Shown: positions 23,662 to 29,273 of the stretch, piece after piece
How the letters are laid out: each line of letters begins with the position of its first letter
Position numbering within the stretch: position 1 is the first letter of the stretch
DNA from: a virus
IMG/VR virus record: IMGVR_UViG_3300025085_000126
Location: 1-29,273 of that record
Length of the DNA stretch: 29,273 bases
Reading direction: 5' to 3' (one strand)
The notes under the pieces: model-generated
What the model saw: the letters and a program-made list of their open reading frames with translations, nothing else
What the model was told of the DNA's origin: nothing
Database searches by the model: none
Translations under genes and position numbers: made by a program

Positions 23662-23672
23662 GGTTTTAAAGG

Positions 23673-23746
23673 TGGACCCTACAGGACTTGAACCTGTGAC
23701 CTATCCGTTATGAGCGGAGTGCTCTGACCAACTGAGCTAAGAGTCC
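23673..23746 (-). tRNA. tRNA with CAU anticodon, probably Ile2 (AUA); Met possible
   Basis: 74 bases fold as a complete cloverleaf on the minus strand: acceptor GGACTCT with AGGGTCC, D stem GCTC/GAGC, anticodon loop CTCATAA (anticodon CAU) and T arm ACAGG/CCTGT with loop TTCAAGT. Discriminator A; CCA is not fully encoded (A, then CC, then T). The G1-C72 pair argues against initiator tRNA. CAU could be elongator Met or lysidine-modified Ile2; the sister tRNAs read AGA and UUA, and AUA is frequent here, so Ile2 is favoured by inference. Its 5' end abuts the CCA of tRNA-Leu. Confidence 0.9.
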
Positions 23747-23835
23747 TGGTAGCCGGAGTGGGACTTGAACCCACACGAACTATCCAGTTCAACAGATTTT
23801 AAGTCTGTCATGTCTACCAATTCCATCATCCGGCC
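23747..23835 (-). tRNA. tRNA-Leu (UAA), CCA encoded
   Basis: 89 bases including CCA. Acceptor GGCCGGA pairs with TCCGGCT (one G-U), the anticodon stem ACAGA/TCTGT holds loop CTTAAAA (anticodon UAA), a long variable arm GAACT/AGTTC marks class II, and the T arm is GTGGG/CCCAC. It reads UUA, the main leucine codon in AT-rich DNA. It abuts tRNAs on both sides without spacer. Confidence 0.95.
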
Positions 23836-23912
23836 TGGTGATCCCACTAGGATTTGAACCTAGAACCTACAGCTTAGAAGGCTGTTGCTCTATCCAGTTG
23901 AGCTATAGGACC
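23836..23912 (-). tRNA. tRNA-Arg (UCU), CCA encoded
   Basis: 77 bases including CCA. Acceptor GGTCCTA with TGGGATC, anticodon stem ACAGC/GCTGT with loop CTTCTAA (anticodon UCU) and T arm CTAGG/CCTAG. It reads AGA, the common arginine codon here. It is the first tRNA on the minus-strand message, six bases after the HNH gene's stop, so the cluster is probably co-transcribed with that gene. Confidence 0.95.
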
Positions 23913-27017: not shown

Positions 27018-27031
27018 TGAACCGTGGTTCA
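27018..27031. other. Dyad TGAACC-GT-GGTTCA at a gene end
   Basis: Perfect 6-base arms separated by two bases, overlapping the stop codon of the gene at 27029. On the plus strand it is followed by CTTTTTTTC, so it could act as a weak terminator for transcription in that direction, or as an operator. A 12-base string just before it, TACTGTTTGTAT (27007-27018), recurs at 28467-28478. Confidence 0.35.
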
Positions 27032-27358
27032 CTTTTTTTCTATACTAAACTCAAATGATACGAAAGGTATGAGTAATAACCATGATACTCTATGTTTTAT
27101 ATCTGGATCTACACCAAAGGCAAATCCAAATATAGGTATAAACTCTACCTTGACGTTAGGGAACATCTTTATCTTTGACATAAAGACGAGGTACATAACT
27201 GAGTTTGCTACAACAACTACACCTAGTAAGGTAATAGTTGTTAGCATAAATGTGTCTACATCATAATTTGTTACAAAATTATATGTACCTATTACGAATG
27301 CTAGTGGTAATACCACAACGTATAGGATTTTTACTAATGATCTGATGAATGATTTCAT
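27029..27358 (-). CDS. Membrane protein, two to three hydrophobic segments
   Basis: A 109-residue protein from ATG 27358 (MKSFIRSLVKILYVVVLPLA). Hydrophobic stretches at ~10-25, ~36-58 (FMLTTITLLGVVVVANSVMY region) and ~74-84 (VEFIPIFGFAFG), with a charged C-terminus ending EKK. A longer ORF from 27394 would overlap the lipoprotein gene at 27382 and skip the AATT leader, so 27358 is preferred. The agtgatta leader motif lies 14 bases upstream. No family is recognised. Confidence 0.7.
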   Translation of the reverse strand: MKSFIRSLVKILYVVVLPLAFVIGTYNFVTNYDVDTFMLTTITLLGVVVVANSVMYLVFMSKIKMFPNVKVEFIPIFGFAFGVDPDIKHRVSWLLLIPFVSFEFSIEKK

Positions 27359-27381: not shown

Positions 27382-27552
27382 TTAACGACCCCATTTGGAT
27401 CTTTTGTGTTTCTTATTTGGTTTCCAGTAGTTTTTTTTGGCCCATGCTTTCTTTGATTTAGATGTCTTACATCCACGAGATGATCCACAAGACTGAAGTA
27501 CTGGTCCTCCTATAAATAGGAGTAACATTAAATAAAGGATTTTCTTTTTCAT
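27382..27552 (-). CDS. 56-residue basic lipoprotein
   Basis: ATG 27552 overlaps the stop of the previous gene as ATGA. The N-terminus is a lipoprotein signal peptide: KKK, a hydrophobic core (ILYLMLLLFIGGPVL) and lipobox LQSC with Cys22. The mature part is short and very basic (KTSKSKKAWAKKNYWKPN, then KKHKRSKWGR) with a second cysteine at residue 28. A lipid-anchored cationic peptide would bind surface or periplasmic polyanions. Missed by length cut-offs, but coupling and signal are convincing. Confidence 0.72.
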   Translation of the reverse strand: MKKKILYLMLLLFIGGPVLQSCGSSRGCKTSKSKKAWAKKNYWKPNKKHKRSKWGR

Positions 27553-27908
27553 AATTTTGCTATTGAAGATTGAACTGTTATTACTACGTATTGTTGACCA
27601 TTATTGATAAGTCTATTATCAAAGAGATAATATAAATCATCTCCTACATACTCTGGTTGTCCATTTGCTCCTGGTACATACCATGGTTTAACTATATATA
27701 CATAGTCATAGTCTGAAGATGTAGGTAACAATGGATAACATTGATTGGTAGGCCAAGCTACATTGTAGTCAACTAATTCTACTTCAGTATCATACTGATA
27801 AATTATGTTAGTACATTGTATTTGTTCTGGTTCAGTAATTTCTAATTCCTCTTTCTGACAAGAGGTGAATGCTAAGGTTAGGCATAAGCCTATGAATAAA
27901 TGTTTCAT
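27549..27908 (-). CDS. Surface lipoprotein candidate with LES-like motif
   Basis: A 119-residue lipoprotein: signal peptide MKHLFIGLCLTLAFTSC with lipobox FTSC (Cys17), then QKEELE directly after the cysteine. In Bacteroidota, acidic motifs of this type next to the lipid cysteine (for example QKDDE) act as lipoprotein export signals that send proteins to the outside of the outer membrane. The mature domain (~100 residues, beta-rich, Tyr/Pro/Asp-rich, extra cysteines C32 and C57) is not recognised. Phage-encoded surface lipoproteins can block receptors against superinfection; that role is inference. The agtgatta leader motif lies 15 bases upstream of ATG 27908. Confidence 0.78.
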   Translation of the reverse strand: MKHLFIGLCLTLAFTSCQKEELEITEPEQIQCTNIIYQYDTEVELVDYNVAWPTNQCYPLLPTSSDYDYVYIVKPWYVPGANGQPEYVGDDLYYLFDNRLINNGQQYVVITVQSSIAKL

Positions 27909-27932: not shown

Positions 27933-28133
27933 TTATATACGATGATAGTAATCATCTGCTACGATGACTGCTGGTATCCAACCAATGAGTAACATAGTAA
28001 ATATGGTTGCTCCATGGCTAAATGATTGTTTAAATGTAATAATATCTGTTAGATACCATACGATAGTATTGACGATTAATAAAGTGATTACGAATGTGGT
28101 TATGCATACAAGCATAGTTTTAGTCTTTAACAT
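27933..28133 (-). CDS. Small two-pass membrane protein
   Basis: A 66-residue protein with two hydrophobic segments, TMLVCITTFVITLLIVNTIV (~6-25) and FTMLLIGWIPAVIVA (~45-59), ending in DDYYHRI. A basic start and short polar loop (KQSFSHG) suggest both ends are cytoplasmic. No family is recognised. It starts the membrane/lipoprotein group and carries the same leader motif as the next two starts. Confidence 0.7.
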   Translation of the reverse strand: MLKTKTMLVCITTFVITLLIVNTIVWYLTDIITFKQSFSHGATIFTMLLIGWIPAVIVADDYYHRI

Positions 28134-28557
28134 AATGATTTAGTATTAGTGATTAGTAAATAACTTAGAGTGCTTATCCATCTTATGTTGACTAGCTATA
28201 CATGTATCTCATGCTTTAGTTGTCCAATGGCTGACACTATCTCAGAATAGTCAGTGGTATTGCTTGACTCATATCTCTAAGCTTTTGATTACAATATTCC
28301 GGGTACTATGTCTATTATCCTATAGAGGAAGAGACAAACATTACCCATGTAGTATTGTTGAGTGTAATTGTTACTCTTGTAGTAGTGTTAGCTATATTAA
28401 TATATTAATGTGCTATGGAAGTTATGATAGTGGTAAAAGGTGGTATATTGTGGGTATGTGATGTCATACTGTTTGTATAACACACATTAATGCACAAAAA
28501 ATAAAAAGATTAACCAGCTTTTACACTGATTAATCAATTTATCTACGGTTTACTAAA
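28134..28557. other. 424-bp non-coding region
   Basis: No convincing gene on either strand; minus-strand ORFs are under 25 codons and a plus-strand 65-codon ORF at 28264-28461 lacks the leader and composition of real genes here. It contains a bulged hairpin CTGAC-AC-TAT/ATA-GTCAG (28231-28254), a perfect 14-base palindrome ATTAATATATTAAT (28396-28409), GTATG/CATAC arms near 28454-28469, the TACTGTTTGTAT string (28467-28478) and, at its end, a terminator. Such density of dyads suggests promoters, a small RNA or a replication site. Confidence 0.5.
28495..28535 (-). terminator. Strong rho-independent terminator
   Basis: On the minus strand GATTAATCAG (28535-28526) pairs with CTGGTTAATC (28517-28508, one G-U) around 8 bases, followed by TTTTTATTTTTTG. 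It lies 22 bases after the stop of the gene at 28558 and isolates it from the membrane-gene group. Confidence 0.85.
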
Positions 28558-28893
28558 CTAAACTGCCTCTACCCATCTCAAATCTGTTTCTTCTCCAGTT
28601 GATAGGTTCATTACTGGATTATCAGACAATCTAAAGCCAGGCATCTTATCACCTCTGTTTAGTTTGCTCTGTAATTGTTTTATTGTAGGATGATCTGCCT
28701 TCATTACTTGACCTGTCTCTGGGTCCATTAGGCTTAACACACCAAAGCTAATGTTGGTCTGCTTTCTACTTGCCACTTTTAAACCGGCTATAGTAGTTTC
28801 AGATTGTACCATTGGCACATCTGATACAATAAGTGTTGCACTGTTAGTATTCTGATTGATACTAAATTTTCTAAAATAAACTGCTGTTTGCAT
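28558..28893 (-). CDS. Hypothetical protein, duplicated family, copy 1
   Basis: A 111-residue protein starting MQTAVYFRKFSINQNTNSAT, a beta-rich first half (LIVSDVPMVQSETTIAGLKV) and a C-terminal half LSLMDPETGQVMKADHPTIK, FRLSDNPVMNLSTGEETD. That half is strongly similar to the end of the gene at 29086. Monocistronic: a long leader above and a strong terminator below, typical of highly expressed early genes. Function is unknown. Confidence 0.75.
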   Translation of the reverse strand: MQTAVYFRKFSINQNTNSATLIVSDVPMVQSETTIAGLKVASRKQTNISFGVLSLMDPETGQVMKADHPTIKQLQSKLNRGDKMPGFRLSDNPVMNLSTGEETDLRWVEAV

Positions 28894-29085: not shown

Positions 29086-29273
29086 TTAGGCTTGTTCAAC
29101 CCAGAACAGGTTCTGGTTCTCTTCACCAGTCTGTAGATTAACTACCTTTTGCTCACTTAACCTGAAGCCAGCCATCTCGTCACCAAGGTTGAGCTTTTGC
29201 CCAAGAGCTTTGATTGTTGGATGAGTACTCTTCATCACCTGATTAGTTTCAGGGTCTATCAGAGATAACACAC
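29086..29273 (-). CDS. Hypothetical protein, duplicated family, copy 2 (5'-partial)
   Basis: The frame is open to the window's right edge, so the N-terminus is missing; the GTG at 29271 is internal and aligns with the Val before LSLMDPE of the other copy. The visible 61 residues, VLSLIDPETNQVMKSTHPTI, FRLSEQKVVNLQTGEEN and FWVEQA at the end, align without gaps over most of their length with the C-terminal half of the gene at 28558. It is followed by its own terminator. Function is unknown. Confidence 0.75.
   Translation of the reverse strand, partial: VLSLIDPETNQVMKSTHPTIKALGQKLNLGDEMAGFRLSEQKVVNLQTGEENQNLFWVEQA

Follow-up and report, generated by a model that had tools for sequence, protein, structure and literature searches.

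Do two adjoining phage genes for small lipoproteins, one acidic and one basic, act on the envelope of the infected cell, and to what end? The genes, here called A and B, lie in a 29.3-kb virus record, the whole of which is referred to as the window. An earlier note on this DNA had described a 119-residue protein in which the lipobox FTSC is followed by QKEE, joined by ATGA to a 56-residue, highly basic lipoprotein. The two ORFs were found as described, on the minus strand, and the overlap is present. The features of the locus are as follows:

27029..27358, minus strand: membrane protein of 109 aa, predicted to have two TM helices, which follows B directly
27382..27552, minus strand: gene B, 56-aa basic lipoprotein with lipobox LQSC, without export motif
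27549..27552, minus strand: ATGA, in which the stop codon of A overlaps the start codon of B, read from the sequence
27549..27908, minus strand: gene A, 119-aa acidic lipoprotein, from ORF and translation
27933..28133, minus strand: 66-aa two-TM membrane protein, directly before A
28285..28465, minus strand: conserved stretch of DNA that precedes the lipoprotein operon, in the same place in most B-containing loci

Two lipoprotein genes and an export motif

The protein encoded by gene A begins with MKHLFIGLCLTLAFTSC-QKEELEITEPE..., comprising an SPII signal peptide (residues 1-16), the lipobox FTSC with the +1 cysteine C17, and QKEE at positions +2 to +5, and its mature form has a net charge of -11. 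Gene B reads MKKKILYLMLLLFIGGPVLQSC-GSSRGCKTSKSKKAWAKKNYWKPNKKHKRSKWGR, with the lipobox cysteine at C22; its mature form starts with CGSSRGC..., ends in the tail KKNYWKPNKKHKRSKWGR and carries a net charge of +14 in 35 residues. The signal peptide and lipobox cysteine of A were recognized both by inspection and by pattern match, and those of B by inspection, as the P and Q in its signal let B escape the signal-peptide pattern. The AlphaFold model of A was poor (pLDDT 51), so that no fold-based argument is made for this protein.

Homologues of A were found in 10 viral contigs and those of B in about 60, 57 of which contain a complete B. The mature B was positively charged in all 57, ranging from +6 to +16, and its tails were of three kinds, KKHKRSKWGR, (K)MRKYR and CWNAKK. 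The invariant residues of B in the family alignment A1 are P17, L19, S21, C22, G23 and C28, besides the start, and those of A in the alignment A2 are C17, Q18, K19, E20, E21, C32 and C57. Codon comparisons gave a dN/dS of 0.07-0.16 for B, at unsaturated synonymous sites, and 0.37-0.64 for A. The many homologues and the dN/dS values indicated that A and B are real genes, both selected as proteins, A less strictly than B.

The minimal surface-export signal of Capnocytophaga canimorsus is K-(D/E)2 or Q-A-(D/E)2 just behind the lipidated cysteine; an AKEEA construct reached the surface, though AKDDA performed better, and the charge seems to have to be negative overall (PMC5080379). The C-Q-K-E-E of A contains K-(D/E)2 starting at +2/+3 and was invariant in 6/6 aligned homologues. 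The proposed similarity of A to the export signals of Bacteroidota surface lipoproteins therefore held, since QKEE fits the experimentally defined signal, including its KEE variant. Expected from composition at about 0.0012 per cysteine (about 1.2 per 1000) in these phages, C-X-K-(D/E)2 was carried by only 5 of the 881 cysteines in three relatives, and 2 of these 5 sites were the lipobox cysteines of A and its counterpart. The motif is rarely expected, and every A homologue carries it at the lipobox cysteine, which indicated that it is more than chance. The corresponding positions of B read C-G-S-S-R, with no acidic residue, and B should stay periplasm-facing because it lacks a Capnocytophaga-type motif. 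Genes, lipoboxes, motif, conservation and neighborhood can be read directly from the DNA; lipidation and location of the two proteins are predictions from them.

Compared with the LES surface lipoproteins of Bacteroidota such as C. canimorsus, A shares the +1 cysteine followed by Q-K-E-E but is phage-encoded, small, and has E instead of the preferred D. No homology of A to SusD or other host lipoproteins was found. Another predicted LES-like lipoprotein (SCSTDE) is YP_009321199 of the cultured crAss-like Flavobacterium phage Fpv3, encoded on the replication strand, in its promoter-proximal part (NC_031904, 84227-84733, minus strand), and annotated merely as hypothetical. Its body showed no homology to that of A (hhalign probability 0.8%), and no B-like neighbor was identified beside it.

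A crAss-like phage and the operon around the genes

From about 1 to 29 kb, the window matches a 78.9-kb contig with 99.8-100% identity in each kilobase. Named matches in the search with the terminase (TerL) were mainly crAss-like phages at 25-26% identity, namely Bacteroides, Flavobacterium, Cellulophaga and uncultured cr phages. PHROG matches were obtained for TerL, portal and head protein (the last two to PHROG head families), and genes for DNA polymerase, DnaB and UDG were found in the window. Related contigs reach about 115 kb, and two ORFs of one relative are very large (3390 and 1923 aa). Crassvirales are recognized by a crass-type terminase, portal, major capsid protein, replication set (PolB, primase, DnaB and UDG) and giant RNAP-sized ORFs, and terminase and gene content indicated that the phage is crAss-like, a distant relative of crAssphage; a Bacteroidota host is expected for this reason. 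The only match in the search of genome contigs, WLWP01000004.1 (114,697 bp), belongs to a MAG labeled Pseudomonadales. It was rejected as host evidence on account of a 127-bp direct terminal repeat and phage genes, and is probably a complete, misbinned phage genome of this group. When 50,697 phage records were searched by tblastn, neither A nor B had a match; the low-complexity filter may hide B.

A and B stand near the head of a leftward replication-gene operon that diverges from the late operon. In crAss001, middle genes precede the late lysis and structural genes (PMC8375218). By analogy, A and B are likely to be expressed early or in the middle phase. Membrane proteins flank the pair in relatives as well: in at least 40 of the 57 contigs, the gene after B or A encodes a protein similar to the 109-aa two-TM protein, and homologues of the 66-aa protein stand before A or B in many relatives. 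The start of the 109-aa protein is more likely at 27358 than at 27394, because its homologues begin at MKSF.

The upstream element at 28285-28465 was about 83-100% identical in A-carrying relatives and 85-88% identical over about 180 nt in many others, with the near-invariant runs ATATAGCTAAC and GTCTCTTCCTCTATAGGATA. A promoter region, a leader and an overlapping small gene are the candidate roles. The element had no Rfam match and no conserved RNA fold, and a Bacteroidota-type promoter pattern did not occur above chance. One frame of the opposite strand reads PIEEETxTTxVVLLSVIVTLVVxLAIFI, which is TM-like, with variation mostly at third positions; this frame has no clear start codon and is interrupted by an early stop in 2 of the 18 sequences. 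No Shine-Dalgarno motif was seen by inspection upstream of A and B, as is usual in Bacteroidota.

Further observations concern other parts of the window. Paralogous proteins of about 110 aa are encoded in tandem at its head (28558-28893 and 29086-29271, minus strand; MQTAVYFRKFSIN... and FGVLSLMDPETGQVMK...), and in the 78.9-kb relative a 65-aa ORF separates the tandem copies, at the point where the window diverges from it. Three tRNA genes (Met, Leu and Arg) lie end to end without spacer at 23671-23912 on the minus strand.

Pairing of A and B across relatives

The ATGA overlap is weak evidence of a special coupling of A and B, because exact 4-nt overlaps were found in 8 of the 82 same-strand neighbor pairs of the nearly identical 78.9-kb relative. 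The distribution of the genes was more informative. The pair was looked for in other phages: an acidic lipoprotein adjoins B in 27 of the 57 contigs with a complete B, before it in 10 (the arrangement of the window) and after it in 17, and the other 30 contigs have B without an acidic partner. B stood beside the partner in 10/10 A loci and in 9/9 loci found with the other partner family, and no acidic lipoprotein away from B was found among the loci searched. The association thus recurs in other phages, in fewer than half of the B loci, and A and B need not act together.

The acidic partners are of at least two kinds, which share the signal peptide and the export motif. The two families align over 27 columns covering this part (hhalign E 5e-10), and homology between their bodies was undetectable with hhalign. 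A common leader and motif with unlike bodies is as expected of a diversifying surface module. Among the 27 partner lipoproteins, 15 have CQKEE, and 12 have CEQEP or CEKEP only. The model of the downstream partner family was of moderate quality (pLDDT 69) and had no structural match with E < 0.001 in PDB and BFVD. Near-identical A genes adjoin B genes of differing tails (loci L009 and L010), and the tail kinds occur with either partner order, recombining independently of A. Partner orders, partner bodies and B tails all vary, which indicated that the locus is a mosaic with B as its constant part and not a co-adapted acid/base pair. The fixed acidic/cationic two-part device imagined in the earlier note does not agree with the frequent loss of the partner, the unrelated-looking bodies, the placement on either side and the tail swaps.

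Possible roles at the cell envelope

A and B probably alter the surface of the infected cell. As to the purpose, we tentatively favor an envelope cassette for superinfection exclusion, a reading that we put forward with less than even confidence. Both proteins would be exported and lipidated. A, with its Q-K-E-E signal, would be flipped onto the outer face of the outer membrane, and B, which has no such signal and is strongly positive next to its lipid anchor, would remain on the periplasmic face. The cassette would occupy or jam an outer-membrane receptor and thereby close the infected cell to further phages; the receptor may be blocked by A from outside, by B from the periplasm, as T5 Llp does, or by both. 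B would be the constant part, and A an exchangeable, faster-evolving surface module.

Exclusion is favored because the two are predicted outer-membrane lipoproteins, A is surface-directed and fast changing, B is under strong purifying selection, the position is of an early type, the neighbors are directed to the envelope (two-TM proteins and, in 13 contigs, a DUF4846 protein), the lysis genes lie elsewhere, Llp provides a precedent, and docking points to suitable receptors. Cor of T1/phi80 and Llp of T5 are superinfection exclusion lipoproteins, small, phage-encoded and located at the outer membrane, as A and B are predicted to be. T5 Llp is a small lipoprotein that acts on the periplasmic side to block FhuA, and proteins of this sort are thought to be common (PMC9586334). 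For crassviruses, docking suggests TonB-dependent receptors as the targets of the tail spike (PMC10569736). Llp is an early protein with an intramolecular disulphide; A has the conserved C32 and C57 besides the lipidated cysteine. The systems differ in that Llp is periplasmic and has no surface-export motif, whereas here two lipoproteins occur, one of them with such a motif, and in that the expected host is a member of Bacteroidota and that of Llp and Cor is E. coli. The profiles of A and B showed no similarity to Llp or other exclusion proteins, PDB chains including the Llp complex 8A60 being searched, and searches of Pfam, PHROGs, NCBIfam, PADLOC and PDB found no homologue with a known function. 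Weak PHROG matches to B were rejected, as they mainly covered the signal peptide and lysines. It also counts against exclusion that the model of A is poor and its counterpart has no structural match, that about half of the B loci are without an acidic lipoprotein, that we infer both expression time and host, that no Bacteroidota-type promoter stood out from chance, that the export rule comes from Capnocytophaga, and that KEE is a weaker signal than KDD there.

The evidence from the mosaic locus may be read differently, with B alone as the conserved effector, a periplasm-facing cationic block that jams the receptor plug or DNA passage, and A as independent cargo for another surface task, e.g., adhesion, decoy or nutrient capture. 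The contigs with B and without A (30/57), the strong purifying selection on B, the near-identical A genes beside B with differing tails, and the periplasmic action of Llp are consistent with this; yet the acidic lipoprotein, whenever present, lies beside B on one side or the other, which suggests some functional link, and we regard the explanation as rather unlikely.

Remodeling without exclusion, in which the cassette would stabilize or reshape the envelope or peptidoglycan over the course of a long infection, is likewise unlikely. It draws on the membrane proteins on both sides of A and B and on a secreted DUF4846 protein (PF16138, E 1e-70) in the lipoprotein locus of 13 contigs, e.g., L095:6997-7842; this family was proposed to be an NlpC/P60-like wall-modifying enzyme with a papain-like fold (PMC10318531). 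However, DUF4846 is missing from the locus of the window and of most relatives, and work on peptidoglycan requires no surface-export motif. As a control, DUF4846 was searched for in named genomes; there was no match anywhere, and the control was uninformative.

The more specific proposal of a two-sided device, in which the constant cationic B in the periplasm and an exchangeable LES surface lipoprotein jointly shut a TonB-dependent (SusC/D-type) receptor, with phages swapping the surface part to match different receptors, is improbable when taken as a whole. Least probable is a lysis cassette, in which the 109-aa two-TM protein would be the holin and B (or A) would be either a lysis lipoprotein of the outer membrane or part of a spanin: a two-TM protein does adjoin small lipoproteins and the 78.9-kb relative has no holin directly beside its endolysin, but the late strand, opposite the replication operon of A and B, carries the endolysin (PG_binding_1 + Amidase_2) and the holins (phrog_3427; PF05105), a TM and coiled-coil-like protein sits elsewhere in another genome, A and B have no C-terminal TM helix of a u-spanin, and their neighbors are a second lipoprotein and two-TM proteins, with no i-spanin-like partner of one TM helix and a periplasmic coiled coil among them.

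Lipoproteins by which phages alter the outer membrane are already known. A limited literature search found no description of a swappable phage lipoprotein that carries a Bacteroidota surface-export signal and adjoins a constant basic one. Superinfection exclusion is poorly understood in phages of Bacteroidota, the abundant crassviruses included. A phage lipoprotein that appears to borrow the surface-export signal of its host would allow a direct test of the control of the outer membrane by crassviruses, and proteins of the A type may serve as small phage substrates to study the surface-export pathway of lipoproteins.
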